From assembly GCF_023101205.1 (NCBI RefSeq), contig NZ_CP078078.1:1674001-1738000 (forward strand): a DNA stretch of 64,000 nt, read 5' to 3'. Under the pieces are notes generated by a model that saw only the letters and a list, made by a program, of their open reading frames with translations, searched no databases and was not told the origin of the DNA. The stretch comes from Microbacterium aurugineum (GTDB lineage Bacteria; Actinomycetota; Actinomycetes; Actinomycetales; Microbacteriaceae). This document shows positions 40,614 through 47,212 of this stretch, piece after piece (the stretch's first letter is position 1; every line of letters begins with the position of its first letter). The position numbers were made by a program, and so were the translations under genes.

Positions 40614-40617
40614 TCTG

Positions 40618-41015
40618 CCACCGCCGCGCTCGACGCGCGCAAGGGGCGTCTCGCGCGATCCCCCGTCGACGCCACACCGTAGACTCGCTCGAGGAGGTCC
40701 CCGTGAGCGTGTCGAACACCGCCGAGCTGTCGGCCACCGTCGCCTACGCCGCAGAGCTGCTGCACGGCAAGCGCATCGCCCTCTTGACCGGAGCAGGCAT
40801 CTCCACGGACTCGGGCATCCCCGCCTACCGCGGCGAGGGAGCCCGAACGCGCAGCGACCCGATGACGATCCAGACCTATCTCGGCGACGAAGCGGCGCGG
40901 CGACGCTACTGGGTGGGCGGGCATCTGGGCTGGCGTGCCTTCGCCAGTGCCGCCCCCAACCCCGGGCACACAGCTCTTGCTCGACTCGAAGCCGCCGGCA
41001 AAGTGTCCGGGGTCA
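40618..41015. repeat. 398-bp direct repeat, left copy (flanks the island)
   Basis: This segment covers the spoU-sir2 intergenic region and the first 104 codons of sir2. It matches 46815-47212 over exactly 398 bp with about six single-base differences, counted by eye. To its left the homology continues in pieces through spoU (40206-40266 and 40329-40386 match 46696-46756 and 46757-46814). It ends at 41015, where the sir2 reading frame is interrupted. Confidence 0.95.
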
Positions 41016-41128
41016 CCTGCTCGCGGATACGCCGGCGAAGTCGAGATGGAAGACGTTCGTCGAAAAGTACCTGCCTGAGCGGGCGATCTGGACGTCCTTG
41101 TCGATCGCGCCGTTCTACATCGCGCTGA
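40703..41128 (+). pseudogene. Truncated sir2 (NAD-dependent deacylase) copy
   Basis: From GTG 40703 the first 104 residues match the intact Sir2 at 46900, including GAGISTDSGIPAYRG of the NAD site. At 41015 the homology stops and 37 unrelated residues follow before a stop at 41128. It lacks the NVDG motif, catalytic His and zinc ribbon, so it cannot be active. It still has the same upstream region and GAGGAGG site as the intact copy and may be transcribed and translated. Confidence 0.92.
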
Positions 41129-41169
41129 TGCTCCTCGGTATCGGCGTGCTCGCCGTGTCGATCTGTTGA
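41016..41169 (+). pseudogene. 3' remnant of a membrane protein gene
   Basis: Directly after the repeat junction a different frame reads LLADTPAKSRWKTFVEKYLP and then a hydrophobic stretch, IAPFYIALMLLGIGVLAVS, ending IC-stop at 41169. It looks like the C-terminal cytoplasmic loop and last helix of a membrane protein whose 5' part is missing. No family is recognised. Confidence 0.5.
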
Positions 41170-41580
41170 GCTCGCATCACCGATCCTGTCGAGGACGCCT
41201 CAGGGATTCGGGCTCATGGAACCAGCGGGCAGGTTCGGCGCCTAGGCAACACTCTTGACGCGCCCGGGTAATTCCGCGGTGTTGATGCCGGCGCGCCCTT
41301 GGCCGTCTCACGTGGGAGGACCGCGAAGTACGTTCTTGCCAACACGGCGTCGCCGACCTCGACAGGGATGTCACTGCAGATGTCGTCACTTGAGTTCGCG
41401 TAGAACAATTCGAGCGCCTTCAACGACGGGCTGCGGAGATTCGCGTCGTCGTGCGTGTGGTGCCATGCTCGGGACGGCGCGCACGAAGAAGTATCGAGGA
41501 GGATATTGCTCAGGCCTTGCCGACCTAGCGAAGCTTGTCGTCGCCCGACGCTCTTGTCGCGGTGCGCCACCCGGATCTGC
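41170..41580. other. Region without an intact gene, left part of the island
   Basis: No convincing complete gene is present. The minus frame 41214-41582 is open for 122 codons and contains a protein-like stretch (SPSLKALELFYANSSDD, then IPVEVGDAVLARTYFAVLP), but the rest is Arg/Pro/Ser-rich and no family is recognised, so it may be a fragment. Plus-strand frames here look random. The region is best described as gene debris. Confidence 0.6.
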
Positions 41581-41784
41581 ATGGAGCCTGAAATGCCGTT
41601 GAACCTGCCCGAATTTCTCGCCGAGCATCCAGTGGATCGAACGCGAGTTGACGCGCACCATCAACGTCTACTCACTGAGGTTGCGAGGCTCGCCGCGGAT
41701 AGCGCACGAAAAGATGACCAGCCAAATAACTGCTCACCCGCGCCTCAGCCCTCATCGCCAACGAGGCGCAGCACTGGGCGCTGA
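41581..41784 (+). pseudogene. Truncated XRE-type antitoxin gene (N-terminal part only)
   Basis: From ATG 41581 or 41593 the frame reads MPLNLPEFLAEHPVDRTRVD and then AHHQRLLTEVARLAAD. This pattern (hydrophobic helix, HPVDR-x-RVDAH, LLTEV) matches the N-terminal extension of actinobacterial HigA/XRE antitoxins. The expected helix-turn-helix is missing: the sequence becomes unrelated near 41725 and its end overlaps the convergent ImmA/IrrE gene by 40 bp. No intact toxin gene is seen upstream. Confidence 0.5.
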
Positions 41785-42869
41785 TCGGGCTCGCCGAGCA
41801 GGTCACGGACCTGGGCAGGCGCCAGCCGCAAGATCTCAGCGAGCGCGGGCACCGTCGCCCCCTGCTCAGCGGCGAACTCCGCCGCCTTGCGCAGCAGTGT
41901 CGGCATCTCCCCCGGGTATGCGCTCGTCGGGTCCGCGGACGGATCGTCGACCTTGGCGAGGCGCTGATAGGCGCGTCGTGCCGAGGAGTCGGTGGTCCGG
42001 CCACGCTCCACCATCCGCCGAACGAGCGAGTGCGGCGAGACCCCCCAGGTCCGCCCGAGTCGATCGAGGGCCGCGAGGTCGAGACGCTGCGGAAGGGCAG
42101 CGTCCATCGATGCCGCCGGTGTGAGGAACGCCGCCGCGAACTCATCGGCCTCCCGCTCGATGGCGGTGCTCTGCTCCCCCGACTCGGCGTGGAGCAGCAG
42201 GTGGCCGATCTCGTGGGCGATCGAGAACCTGTGCCGGAAAACATTCTCGCTGCGGCGCGGCGTCGTGACCACGATCGGTCGGTCCAGGATCACAGACGAG
42301 AACGCGTCCACCGCATCGACCTCCCCCAGCGGGCGCACGACCACGACGATCCCCCGCGACTCCGCGGTGGCGACCAAATGCCGCACCGGCCCATCCGGCA
42401 GACCCCAGTGCCGACGCAGCGACGCAGCCGCTTCACCCGGGCTCGTCCCAGACAGCAACTTCGGAAGATCCGCCTCCGGGAGCTTGACGTACCGCTCTAG
42501 CGCGAAAGTCAACTCCCACACCAGCGTTGCGGTCGAGAGCGCTCGCTGGCGGTCGCTGACCCGCGCCGAGCGCAGGCTCCGGAAATGCGCGTGCACGGTG
42601 TCGATGCGCGCGAGCGGCCTGCCCACGGTGAAGAACCCGGGACGCACCTTCAACGTCGTCGCGATCCGCTCGACCACATCGGCACGAGGAGAGTTCACCC
42701 CCGCCTCGTACTGACCGATCGCTGCAGCCGAGACCCCGACCGCTGCCGCGAGCTCCGTCTTGCTCAGGCTCTGGCGCACGCGAGCCTGCGTCAGCCGCGC
42801 AGGCTCGAACCTCCCCTGGCCATCCGAGGAGCCTGGGAGATCGAACAGCCCAGGGTACTTGTCACGCAT
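41745..42869 (-). CDS. XRE-ImmA/IrrE family metallo-endopeptidase
   Basis: A 374-residue protein in two parts. Residues about 25-75 form a Cro/C1-type HTH (LSKTELAAAVGVSAAAIGQYEAGVNSP). The second half is an ImmA/IrrE zinc peptidase with SIAHEIGHLLLH (H219, E220, H223) and E240 in EREADEFAAAFLTP, followed by a winged-helix-like segment. Such proteins bind or cleave repressors and control mobile elements, stress genes or toxin-antitoxin loci. The start ATG 42869 lies 8 bp inside the upstream gene, so the two are cotranscribed. The frame is open upstream to 43163 but that is a shadow. Confidence 0.9.
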   Translation of the reverse strand: MRDKYPGLFDLPGSSDGQGRFEPARLTQARVRQSLSKTELAAAVGVSAAAIGQYEAGVNSPRADVVERIATTLKVRPGFFTVGRPLARIDTVHAHFRSLRSARVSDRQRALSTATLVWELTFALERYVKLPEADLPKLLSGTSPGEAAASLRRHWGLPDGPVRHLVATAESRGIVVVVRPLGEVDAVDAFSSVILDRPIVVTTPRRSENVFRHRFSIAHEIGHLLLHAESGEQSTAIEREADEFAAAFLTPAASMDAALPQRLDLAALDRLGRTWGVSPHSLVRRMVERGRTTDSSARRAYQRLAKVDDPSADPTSAYPGEMPTLLRKAAEFAAEQGATVPALAEILRLAPAQVRDLLGEPDQRPVLRLVGDEG

Positions 42870-43545
42870 CCAACGACCGTCCCTGCTTCTGCAACTCGAG
42901 CGAAGGCACGATCGGAGTGCCGCTGTCGAACGACTCGACGTCGGCGGTCGCGTCGCCGCTCTCGGCCGGGTGCTCCCAGATGGTCTCCATGCCGAGAGGG
43001 CGCACCGTGCCGTCGACGTACTCGGCGACGGCCCACTCAATCGAGGTGAGCTGACGCGGAGTGGAGTGGACCATGACGAGCACCACGGACATGACCTCGC
43101 CCGCCGCGCGCACAGCACGTTCGAATTCCGCCTGCTCGCTCGCATTGCGGACATCGTCGCCACCCTCGACGAAGCTGGTGCCGAACAGCCCCACCGGCTC
43201 CTGCGCGAAGAACCCGTTCATGCGCGTCTTGCTCGACGCGAACCCGCCCACAGCGTCCGGCGTCGCCGGTACCCGCCAGACGAACAGCAAGCACCCGTTG
43301 ACGATCGGCAGCCGGTAACCCGCGGGCTTGAGCTTGTACGGCAGATAGCCACGCTCCTTGAACGCGTCGACCGTGTCCTCCTGGAGATCCCGCCACTGCC
43401 CACCGAAGCCGATCGCGTACCGCGTCGCCGCCGCCTGGTGCGCATCCGCCGCCAGCGCATGACGCGCCTGCACGACCTCGACAACCAGATCACGCGCGCC
43501 TTCAGAATGAGCACCAAACGCTTCGAAGGGAGAACTCGGGACCAT
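42862..43545 (-). CDS. Uncharacterised protein cotranscribed with XRE-ImmA/IrrE
   Basis: A 227-residue protein that I do not recognise. No signal peptide, membrane helix or zinc motif is seen. It has a mixed alpha/beta pattern: YRLPIVNGCLLFVWRVP, VMSVVLVMVHSTPRQL and SIEWAVAEYVDGTVRP look like core strands, which suggests a globular enzyme or ligand-binding domain. It starts with GTG or ATG-like codon at 43545 (MVPSSPFEAF) and overlaps the ImmA/IrrE gene by 8 bp. With the palindrome upstream, it may be the effector or antitoxin partner of the metallopeptidase. This role is inference. Confidence 0.7.
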   Translation of the reverse strand: MVPSSPFEAFGAHSEGARDLVVEVVQARHALAADAHQAAATRYAIGFGGQWRDLQEDTVDAFKERGYLPYKLKPAGYRLPIVNGCLLFVWRVPATPDAVGGFASSKTRMNGFFAQEPVGLFGTSFVEGGDDVRNASEQAEFERAVRAAGEVMSVVLVMVHSTPRQLTSIEWAVAEYVDGTVRPLGMETIWEHPAESGDATADVESFDSGTPIVPSLELQKQGRSLDA

Positions 43546-43685: not shown

Positions 43686-44504
43686 CTAGAGGTATCTGAA
43701 TCCGCCGGAGCAGAAGTCGGGCGATGCTGCGGCCGCGGCGAGGATCGTGGGTCGCCAGTGGTTCACGCCTACACGCCGCGCCGCGCTTCTTGCATCGCGG
43801 TCCAAGTACTTCATCACGTCGGCCGCCCCACCATCGCCGAAGTACTCTTCAAGAGCTTCGCGGCGCTCAAGAAGGAGCTCAACCGACGCCCCCGAGTAGG
43901 CGGCGTCCAGTTCGAACAGCTCGAACTGTTGCGCAATGACGGTGAACTGCGATGCCGACATTCCTGCGGGTTGGACCACGTGAAACGACGGGGTCACCGT
44001 TGGCGCATCACTGAGTGAAGCTCGGAGGAAGGGAAGCGAGTCCGGGAGGTCATCGAGATAGGCATGAATGAAGGTCTGCTCGCCCCTCTCGTTGCGAAAG
44101 TCCCGTCGTTTCTTGTTGTTGCACACTGAGCAGGCAGGGACGAGGTTCAAGCTGAGGGCCGCAAACTCGGGGAAGTCCTCCTGCGGCAAGTAGTGATCGA
44201 GTTCACTCGAATCCCGTAGGGCGCAAAGACAGCAAAGACTGCTGCGCGCCAGGAGTTCCGCCCCTATCTCCTTGAGCGCGCCAGACCGCAGGACCCCGTA
44301 ATTGGACCGAAGCACGTCCGCGACCGGCTTGTCCCCGAACGACGAATCAAGTTTCCACACCTCGCCGTCGACGTAGATGTCGTACGCCTCCATCACATCT
44401 CGTCGCGCTGCCTCGAGCATGGCCTTTCCAGCGCGATTGCGGCGTTGCGACAGAAGATCGTAGAGCTCAGGTTCGTCCGTCGAGGGCCAATCTACTGTGC
44501 GCAT
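43686..44504 (-). CDS. HNH endonuclease, Septu PtuB-like
   Basis: A 272-residue protein. A zinc-knuckle HNH nuclease lies at residues 91-132: C91/C94, D103-H104 in ELDHYLPQ, N120, C125/C128 and N129 in VPACSVCNNKK. About 85 residues precede the nuclease and 130 helical residues follow. It starts 2 bp after the stop of the AAA ATPase gene on the same strand, the order known for Septu (ptuA then ptuB), where ATPase and HNH protein form a nuclease complex against phage. The family assignment to PtuB is by architecture, not by alignment. The gene itself looks intact. Confidence 0.8.
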   Translation of the reverse strand: MRTVDWPSTDEPELYDLLSQRRNRAGKAMLEAARRDVMEAYDIYVDGEVWKLDSSFGDKPVADVLRSNYGVLRSGALKEIGAELLARSSLCCLCALRDSSELDHYLPQEDFPEFAALSLNLVPACSVCNNKKRRDFRNERGEQTFIHAYLDDLPDSLPFLRASLSDAPTVTPSFHVVQPAGMSASQFTVIAQQFELFELDAAYSGASVELLLERREALEEYFGDGGAADVMKYLDRDARSAARRVGVNHWRPTILAAAAASPDFCSGGFRYL

Positions 44505-44506
44505 TC

Positions 44507-46002
44507 CTAGTCGGACTCTCGGCTCATTCTCAACGCGAGGGCTCGGGCCTGGCTGCTTGCCCCGTCGGCGAAGAGTCGCTCGAATTCTTCAACGTCCATG
44601 CGGGAGATCAAGTCGCGAATGACACCCCTGTGGCCCGAGATCGAGTTGTCCAGTCCGAAGGCTTCGGTCGTGAGTTCGCCCAAGCCTGCTGCGAACGTCT
44701 CGAGCTTGGGCGGCGCGGCTCGCACGATATCACCGAATCGCTCGACCACCAACACATCCTTGGCAGCCACCTCCTGAAGCACCACGGGCTGTGGGTGGCG
44801 ACAACGGCGAACGAATCGAAGGCATCGAGCAAGTGATGGACGCCGCGAAGAAGCGCCGCGAGCAGTGGCGGGTGAAGATGCGTCTCGGGTTCATCGAGCA
44901 GCACGAGCGAACGCTTCCGCAAGTGCGCTGCGAGTTGGACGAGAATGTTCATCACAATTTTCTGACCCGAACTCAGGCGGGAAGGATACTCGGCAGGGAT
45001 CTCCGCGGACGCCACCCACGTCGCCAAGCTAATTCCAGATCGACCAAAGGATGGATCGGACTCGATCGTCTCCATAACCTGCGTAAGCAGTGCCGAATCT
45101 CTCGCGCATGCTGTGGCGAAAGCGGTGACCAACTCATCGTCGAGCTCTCGAATCGACTTGAGACGCGTGGTTTGGGGATCCGCCTGTACCTGGCGAAGGC
45201 CGCAATAGGTGTAGCCGAAGCGAGTCGTTGACGAAGCTTCCTCTAGCTTGAGGTCATCCTCGCTCGCGTTAAGGATCGGCGGCAGTTGAAAGTGGTCGAA
45301 GGCACTGTAGGAGACGGCCACCACGGAGCTGAAGGATCGGCTGGCTCCAGATTTCGGATCTGCAGCGGCCAGTCCCACCCGGCTGACATCGCGCGCCAGC
45401 TCTGCGAGCAATCTAGTCTTGCCGACGCCGTTGTAGCCGATCAGGACCTTGCACCTCCCGGGAAGCGTACGGGTGTCGTCGAAGTGGAATTCAAGGTTGA
45501 GCCCGAGCTCGCGGCTCTGGTGGGAAAGCGTCGCAATTCCACCCGCGTTTGTCGCGGGCTCGAAGAGCGCGCTTGCCATGGCGAGCGTGTGCTCAGCCTG
45601 TCCGAACCTTGTGACTGAGGACGTCCACCCCTCCTCGTGCTCGAACTCGCGGGCGATGGTGCTGTCTACTGCAGCATCTCGCATGGCCACGAGAAAGGCA
45701 TCTCTGACTTTTGTCGGAAGCTCTGCCAGCTTCTCGTAGTACTCGATGTCCTGCCCTAGCGAGCAGTAGCGCTCGTCGAGCGAGCGGAAGACAGGCTTGT
45801 CGAACTGAGTTCGACCTCCGGTCTGTCCAGCCTTCAGGATTTTCACCAATCCGACGTCGATGGTCTCTCCACGCGCAGGAGTGAACTCGGCGTGGAAGAG
45901 GGTTTTGAACCCGAAATCGTCCCACCCGTCGCGACGCAACACCACCAGGTCCTCGCTACTCTTCTTGTGCGAAGCAAACCGGTCGACGACTCGAATCTTC
46001 AC
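44507..46002 (-). pseudogene. Septu PtuA-like AAA/ABC-type ATPase, split by a one-base frameshift
   Basis: Starts with GTG 46002 after TTAGGAGAG. Residues 1-165 form an unrecognised N-terminal domain. The ATPase follows: Walker A GYNGVGKT (189-196), signature RLSSGQK (342-348), Walker B LVLLDEPETHLHP (D370, E371) and H-loop VVATHSP (400-406). After residue 406 the frame is lost: codons CCG TGG TGC replace the expected CCG GTG GTG CTT. Reading one base back at 44785 restores VVLQEVAAKDVLVVERFGD and 93 codons to a stop at 44507, for about 498 residues in all. So one G is missing at 44784/44785. It is a mutation, a sequencing error or, less likely, recoding. Confidence 0.82.
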
Positions 46003-46203: not shown

Positions 46204-46814
46204 TCAACTTGGTGGGGATCGCCTCGTTGCGTAGAACGTGACGGCGGACGCTCCTGCGACGTTCAACGAGTCGACGCCGCTCATCATCGAAATCGTCACA
46301 CGGCGATCGAGCAGCGCGTCGGTGTGAGCCGAGATGCCGAAGCCCTCGGAACCGAAAACAAGAGCGAGCCTCTCGTGGTCCTCGGCAACGAGCTCATCCA
46401 GTGTCACCGCTCCCTCTCCCCACGTCATCCCGGCGACCACGTAGCCGGCGTCCTTGAGATCCTTAATGCGTGAGGGCCATTCAGGGATGCGCGTCCATGC
46501 CATCTGGAAGACGGCGCCCATCGACACCCGGACGGAGCGGAGATAGAGCGGGTCGGCACAGTCGGGCGTGACCAGAACGGCATCCACGCCCAGCGCGGCG
46601 GCCGACCTGAACAGTGCACCGACACTCGTATGGTCGGTCACGCCGTCCAGAATCGCGACGCGAGATCGATTCTTGACCTTCGGTGTTCTTGAACACCCCA
46701 CGTTCGTGTGGTCGCCGATGTTCTCCAGGATGAGGACGAGCGTCGCTCCTTCCAGCGAACCCGGTGACGGCGTCGGCGACCTCGTCGGAGATGACGTACA
46801 CCGGCACGTCGAAG
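46204..46814 (-). pseudogene. Mosaic of SpoU methyltransferase fragments
   Basis: Reading leftward from 46814, two pieces match the intact SpoU gene at 39804 (46757-46814 equals 40329-40386; 46696-46756 equals 40206-40266), with 231 and 62 bp missing at the joints. From about 46677 to the stop at 46204 the frame encodes the 157-residue C-terminus of a different SpoU protein (VAILDGVTDHTSVGALFRS ... LVFGSEGFGIS ... SMMSGVDSLNVAGASAV), roughly half identical to the first. The start and substrate-binding domain are missing, so no working enzyme is expected. Confidence 0.82.
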
Positions 46815-47212
46815 CCACCGCCGCGCTCGACCCGCGCACAGGGCGTCTCGCGCGATCCCCTGTCGACGCCACACCGTAGACTCGCTCGAGGAGGTCCCCG
46901 TGAGCGTGTCGAACACCGCCGAGCTGTCGGCCACCGTCGCCTACGCCGCAGAGCTGCTGCACGGCAAGCGCATCGCCCTCTTGACCGGAGCAGGCATCTC
47001 CACCGACTCGGGCATCCCCGCCTACCGCGGCGAGGGAGCCCGAACGCGTAGCGACCCGATGACGATCCAGACCTATCTCGGCGACGAAGCGGCGCGGCGA
47101 CGCTACTGGGTGGGCGGGCATCTGGGCTGGCGTGCCTTCGCCAGTGCCGCCCCCAACCCCGGGCACACAGCTCTTGCTCGACTCGAAGCCGCCGGCAAAG
47201 TGTCCGGGGTCA
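46815..47212. repeat. 398-bp direct repeat, right copy
   Basis: Matches 40618-41015 over 398 bp with about six substitutions and no length change. It contains the upstream region and first 104 codons of the intact sir2. Homology continues leftward in two shorter collinear blocks to 46696. After 47212 the sir2 frame continues normally, so this copy is joined to the complete gene. Confidence 0.95.

Follow-up and report, generated by a model that had tools for sequence, protein, structure and literature searches.

Does the ATPase-nuclease gene pair at positions 43,686 to 46,002 of the Microbacterium aurugineum stretch given above belong to the Septu defence family, as its gene order suggests, and if it does not, where should it be placed? 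The stretch, called the window here, is 64,000 nucleotides long (bases 1,674,001-1,738,000 of the genome, a single contig of 3.63 Mb with a completeness rating of 100%). A preliminary description, made from the sequence of the window, had read the pair as a Septu-like module whose ATPase carries an unusual N-terminal domain. We propose that the pair is best filed as a member of PDC-M01, a candidate defence system listed by PADLOC, being Septu-like in its anatomy and failing Septu membership on its nuclease as far as tested. Judged by profiles and gene order, the ea59-ea31 genes of phage lambda are the same pair as PDC-M01, homologous along its length and arranged in the same order.

Results

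Both genes lie on the minus strand. The ATPase gene starts at 46002 and has its last stop at 44507, and the gene of the HNH nuclease (PDC-M01B; 43686..44504, intact, 272 aa) starts at 44504, leaving a gap of 2 nt. The motifs listed in the preliminary description are all present at the locus, namely Walker A (GYNGVGKT), the signature (LSSGQ), LLDEPETHLHP and the H-loop (ATHSP) in the ATPase and the two CxxC pairs in the HNH protein (CxxC at C91 and C94, DH at 103-104, N120, and CxxCN at C125-N129), as are the ATPase-first order and the 2-nt gap. The two-gene unit stands as far as adjacency is concerned, but no single open frame encodes the ATPase. The frame is broken directly after the H-loop: the larger first piece of this ABC-type ATPase (PDC-M01A; 44608..46002), with the N-terminal domain, Walker A, signature, Walker B and H-loop, is an open reading frame (ORF) of 464 aa whose tail is out of frame, and a C-terminal piece of 92 aa lies in a different reading frame (44507..44785, minus strand). 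Guanine-plus-cytosine content by codon position indicates a single frame change inside the ATPase, which falls roughly within 44,700-44,800. In PADLOC the two pieces fall in register on the same families; on PDC-M01A, for example, they cover 1-425 and 415-504 of 510, the C-terminal piece with 52.0 bits. An intact homologue, P0028 (498 aa), is identical to the first piece at 374/410 residues (91%) and to the second at 91/92, so that the break is either recent or a sequencing error. The record of P0028, the closest intact ATPase, carries the firmicute name Aneurinibacillus sp. BA2021 on a 3.56-Mb contig and may be mislabelled. A scan of the genome contigs with the ATPase query returned one locus.

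The PADLOC search that the preliminary description had suggested gave, among the best 25 of 51 families for the window proteins, PDC-M01A for the first ATPase piece, whose residues 2-407 align with positions 2-390 of the 482-position profile at 316.9 bits, and PDC-M01B for the HNH protein, whose residues 1-270 align with positions 1-279 of 282 at 153.9 bits; P0028 scored 364.9 bits on PDC-M01A over 1-496. What defines PDC-M01, a PDC-M01A match and a PDC-M01B match in adjacent genes with the ATPase first, is found at the locus, and both proteins match over nearly their whole length. No structural difference from PDC-M01 was found, the window differing in that its ATPase gene is broken. All 54 aligned ATPases and all 28 aligned HNH proteins (the 27 HNH matches and the window protein) matched the PDC-M01A and PDC-M01B models.

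The likeness to Septu, and to the PtuAB pair of type I-A retrons, lies in an ABC ATPase encoded upstream of an HNH protein and in the ATPase domain, over which the best matches in a profile search of solved structures were PtuA-type ATPases of retrons and Septu. The PtuA1 profile PDLC00282 matched the window piece with 215.8 bits, less than PDC-M01A did, and P0028 with 261.4 bits; for the PtuA profile PDLC00311 the window locus was not listed at E ≤ 1, and the ATPase reached 21.2 bits on NCBIfam PtuA, whose cut-off is 500. Walker A, moreover, lies near residue 190 here, in contrast to K43 in PtuA of E. coli B88 (PMC13096335; here and below, cited papers stand for the portions of their text that were available). 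On the nuclease side, the PtuB profiles PDLC00315 and PDLC00325 gave 17.4 and 13.5 bits, over the HNH core only and below the 28.5 and 18.5 bits that a different HNH-like site of this genome reached on them, and NCBIfam PtuB (NF041761) did not match the HNH protein. Canonical Septu was rejected because the HNH protein failed the PtuB test on the three profiles tried; what survives of the earlier Septu reading is the ATPase-HNH order, not Septu proper. At E ≤ 1e-15, a PtuB profile matched none of 198 genomes of the order and none of the controls. A type I-A retron was also rejected, as the whole genome lacked a match to the reverse transcriptase family RVT_1 (PF00078) at E ≤ 0.001, a search in which 3 of 14 control genomes matched. 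The preliminary description had named an unrelated family, such as a restriction or replication ATPase, as the outcome that would speak against it; this candidate was dropped, the best NCBIfam match to the first ATPase piece being restrict_AAA_1 with 25.5 bits against a cut-off of 300.

When P0028 was compared by tblastn with 50,697 phage records, 24 matched, mostly lambda and its kin. The match in lambda is ea59 (27.7% over 93% of the query, E 1e-24), with the N-terminal domain included. The gene that follows in the same order, ea31, has the annotation HNH endonuclease and shares 4 nt with the end of ea59. Because Ea59 and Ea31 score so high on the PADLOC models (Ea59, 667.4 bits on PDC-M01A and 610.8 bits on PDLC00282; Ea31, 375.2 bits on PDC-M01B), the link between PDC-M01 and lambda is implicit in PADLOC. 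Profile comparison with the lambda proteins gave E 4.2e-65 over 482 columns for the ATPase and E 5.2e-25 over 266 columns for the HNH protein. The lambda pair is a distant one, carried by a phage: the window ATPase piece is 26% identical to Ea59 in the N-terminal domain and 32% in the ATPase part that follows. The Ea59 family is of unknown function in PHROGs, and ea59 and ea31 go by the names of b-region and early genes. Among 5,426 E. coli genomes, 91 had DNA at least 99% identical to ea59-ea31 and 68 had at least 80% of the pair. In the laboratory strain BL21(DE3), NC_012892.2 789695-790564 matches only about 35% of the ea59-ea31 stretch, in the 5' part of ea59.

The preliminary description had made co-occurrence in other genomes its test, and the pair is conserved elsewhere: the ATPase gene is followed directly by an HNH gene in all 16 strong loci outside the window (seven cellular, L002 and L046-L051; eight of eight viral; and lambda). 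The two genes overlap by up to 50 nt or lie up to 3 nt apart; the overlaps may be overstated because gene starts were taken as the first start codon of each ORF. At loci with weak ATPase similarity (L010-L032), an HNH gene was present within the flanks of about 1.5 kb in 0 of 23. Pairwise distances of ATPase and HNH proteins are correlated (r 0.94 over 19 loci, a value reached in 0 of 9,999 permutations), which shared descent alone could also produce. Residues invariant in 20 ATPases include G189, N191, G194 and K195 of Walker A, S344 and G346 of the signature, DEPE.HLHP and ATHSP; in 19 HNH proteins they are C91, C94, D103, H104, L106, N120, C125, C128, N129 and W250. These 20 ATPases, with locus L057 left out of the residue table, span actinobacteria, a planctomycete, proteobacteria and viruses. 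For the viral-contig loci L053 and L054, the ratio of nonsynonymous to synonymous substitution rates was 0.05 in the ATPase gene and 0.12 in the HNH gene, and from this comparison the pair is under purifying selection; the other six of the seven pairs of loci had saturated or near-saturated synonymous distances in one or both genes.

Within the order the pair is sparse, a strong ATPase match (E ≤ 1.6e-34) occurring in 7 of 396 genomes, the window's own included; 118 genomes matched the ATPase, and the matches shown beyond the seven cover parts of the ATPase domain only. All eight viral-contig matches carry the pair, and genes for an S24 peptidase-type repressor, a VapE-like protein and integrases lie near it in viral contigs, integrase genes being near the pair in L053 and L057. 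ATPase matches also occurred in 69 of 72,556 plasmid records; of three that were opened, two had the next gene within 4 nt, and in L064 a shorter HNH-like gene followed 209 nt on. This setting in viral contigs, plasmids and islands fits defence and fits competition between mobile elements too. A genome of the same genus (L051, 3987-12709) holds a distant copy of the pair that has a serine recombinase-type gene on either side and a C5-cytosine DNA methylase gene nearby. Large SMC/AAA-type genes stand directly upstream of the pair in L053 (2976-5954, 992 aa) and L054 (2897-5560, 887 aa), and they may be a third component in this sub-branch. A conserved third gene was rejected for the family, since the large genes upstream in L053 and L054 are kin, L064 has an unrelated one and lambda has none at this position.

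The N-terminal domain (45508..46002, minus strand), about 165 aa before the nucleotide-binding domain, is the hallmark of the family. It was present in 54/54 aligned homologues, all of them covering 145 or more of 150 columns, in an alignment thinned by hand from 120 listed of 3,805 matches and made of the best full-length ones, which favours domain-bearing proteins. Nine of its residues are invariant in the 20 ATPases (W27, D29, G51, K54, L75, S81, Y89, D109 and R132, in P0028 numbering), and twelve sequences of the domain alone share the same nine together with L22 and F72. No Pfam family matched it, apart from a stray HD match in one of 12 members (E 0.038), and no relative was found among solved structures in the PDB (best E 1.4 and 0.39). 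The region had been described as unrecognised and unusual; the former holds for Pfam and the PDB, and the latter does not, as the domain lies within the PDC-M01A profiles and is shared by PDC-M01 and lambda Ea59. An extension private to this genome was rejected, given its presence in every aligned homologue and in Ea59. By these comparisons the domain is new to the domain libraries searched and not private to the genome. A search with the domain alone returned 49 short proteins, of which 14 run into Walker A and 35 stop before it; the 35, some of them on long contigs, look like fragments or broken copies when judged from length and tails only. With 14 of the 49 carrying Walker A and the remainder read in this way, a free-standing domain family was rejected. 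One protein, P0170 (241 aa), has a match to the N-terminal domain and a tail that on visual inspection resembles the C-terminus of the HNH partner, as though a deletion had removed the middle of a pair.

The pair had been placed in an island bounded by direct repeats, and this was borne out. The repeat is 399 nt long and 98.5% identical between copies, the left copy (40617..41015) covering the methylase/Sir2 intergenic region and the 5' part of Sir2 and the right copy (46814..47212) running into the intact Sir2 gene. The SpoU-type methylase and Sir2 genes that it spans are contiguous without an island in 9 of 9 relatives compared (L034-L042), these being the ones with a locus returned among 12 other genomes of the genus (G401, G402 and G404 gave none); in G401 and G402 the flanking genes sit apart. 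On the left flank are an intact methylase gene and a truncated Sir2 gene, and on the right an intact Sir2 gene and a divergent methylase fragment. This SpoU-type fragment, at the right island edge (46204-46698), has 65.5% DNA identity to the intact left methylase, which points to another lineage or a paralogue as its source.

Also in the island is a minus-strand gene encoding an XRE helix-turn-helix domain and an ImmA/IrrE (peptidase M78) domain (41745..42861; its ORF as listed reaches 43163, and we place the start at 42861). The product matches RmrA of RosmerTA with 268.4 bits and capP with 58.8 bits, rmrT and rmrA being the gene names of that system (PMC11883136). The adjoining upstream ORF of 227 aa (42862..43545, minus strand) differs from RosmerTA in that no RmrT match, nor any other PADLOC match, was found at E ≤ 1; it also had no NCBIfam match and no Pfam match above cut-off. 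It could be a diverged partner of the RmrA-like gene. Given the weaker capP and capH matches, the RmrA-like gene is possibly a general regulator. Three ORFs tried in 41016-41744 had no Pfam match.

Discussion

Taking the analysis as a whole, we consider it likely that the pair is a PDC-M01 defence candidate, a relative of Septu and not Septu itself, homologous to lambda Ea59-Ea31, in which an ATPase would control an HNH nuclease that halts the infected cell. An ATPase-controlled HNH nuclease is the best reading of PDC-M01 because the catalytic residues are conserved and the pairing is tight. For one Septu of E. coli, immunity is lost when Walker or H-N-H residues are mutated, and infection brings cleavage of tRNA-Tyr at its variable loop (PMC13096335). 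The PtuAB of retron-Eco7 depletes tRNA-Tyr, that of retron-Eco4 probably has no tRNA target, and another Septu is reported to act on DNA (PMC11555353). By analogy, the PDC-M01 ATPase may multimerise through its ABC domains and, in its ATP state, keep the HNH subunit bound and inactive. The N-terminal domain could be a sensor or a docking surface that is particular to the family. A cue carried by the phage would then lift the inhibition, and the HNH active site would cut host tRNA or phage or host DNA, so that the infected cell stops making phage. At chances a little short of even, PDC-M01 and lambda Ea59-Ea31 may form one immune system distinct from Septu, in which the N-terminal domain senses infection and releases the HNH nuclease and the lambda pair is a prophage-encoded defence against rival phages.

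Several observations weigh against assigning the pair to defence in this way. The window HNH protein finds Ea31 only weakly as a single sequence (E 3e-3 over 39%), so the HNH link to lambda rests on profiles and gene order. Beyond the HNH core, the partner has no PtuB likeness on the three profiles, and its target may therefore differ from that of PtuAB. The broken ATPase frame gives no sign that the window copy works. Both ea59 and ea31 were non-essential in a CRISPR interference screen, a result compatible with defence that lends it no support, and Ea59 was labelled there as an ATP-dependent endonuclease (PMC10695390). Elsewhere the lambda genes appear as space that can be removed, as a protein (Ea59) with a single interaction and as a polymerase chain reaction landmark (PMC12318184, PMC3224144, PMC3945230). 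No defence role for ea59 or ea31 was found in the literature searched, mostly by title and with subscription papers and preprint servers outside its scope, and a search joining lambda prophage with Septu and anti-phage likewise found nothing. PDC systems are described as unpublished candidates (PMC11811056), and in the portions of literature searched PDC-M01 appears as annotation, with no activity attached; pairs tested as Septu might include some of its members.

Three other explanations must be considered. It is quite possible that the window copy is a degenerate leftover without function in this genome, which would be compatible with the family assignment made here. Beyond the frame break, the truncated Sir2 copy and methylase fragment beside the island suggest as much, and broken copies (or database fragments) seem common in view of the 35 short domain proteins that stop before Walker A. 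However, the HNH gene is intact, and the agreement of both ATPase pieces with P0028 argues that any break is recent or arose in sequencing. We conclude that the module is probably silent in this isolate unless the break is a sequencing error.

We think it unlikely that the pair is a true subtype of Septu, that is, a PtuA that gained an N-terminal domain and a PtuB that diverged quickly, acting by the same mechanism on the same targets. PADLOC does file PDLC00282, a profile that bears the N-terminal domain, under PtuA1, and its scores for the window piece, P0028 and Ea59 are those given above. The gene order is the same, and the histidine-asparagine spacing of the window HNH protein (H104-N120, window numbering) equals that of E. 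coli B88 PtuB (H75-N91; PMC13096335). In a survey of the B. cereus group, 41 PDC-M01 calls duplicated Septu calls (PMC11811056), from which it follows that the border between the two is blurred in current tools. However, the PtuB scores are confined to the HNH core and are exceeded at another place in the genome, NCBIfam PtuB does not match, and both NCBIfam PtuA and PDLC00311 fail to recover the ATPase, so that we retain the assignment to PDC-M01 as a relative of Septu.

That the pair is instead a phage nuclease for host takeover or DNA metabolism, with the bacterial copies as prophage remnants, is rather improbable: it would account for the carriage by lambda and eight viral contigs, for the position of ea59 between ea31 and the attachment/integrase region and for the repressor, VapE-like and integrase genes near the pair in viral contigs, but the ATPase was matched in 24 of 50,697 phage records as compared to 69 of 72,556 plasmid records, the distant L051 copy lies near methylase and recombinase genes, the window copy has an RmrA-like gene as its neighbour, and both genes came out as non-essential in lambda (PMC10695390).

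With PDC-M01 as the preferred placement, the window locus is one more, probably broken, member of a catalogued candidate system, and the main interest lies in its kinship with lambda ea59-ea31, which makes the function of two genes of a standard laboratory phage, genes for which the literature searched yielded no assigned role, directly testable. If the proposed role is true, an ATPase-HNH immunity module has gone unrecognised in lambda lysogens and in some laboratory strains, and PDC-M01 would provide a second route to the control of HNH nucleases by ABC ATPases, by way of a domain that the tested PtuA lacks.

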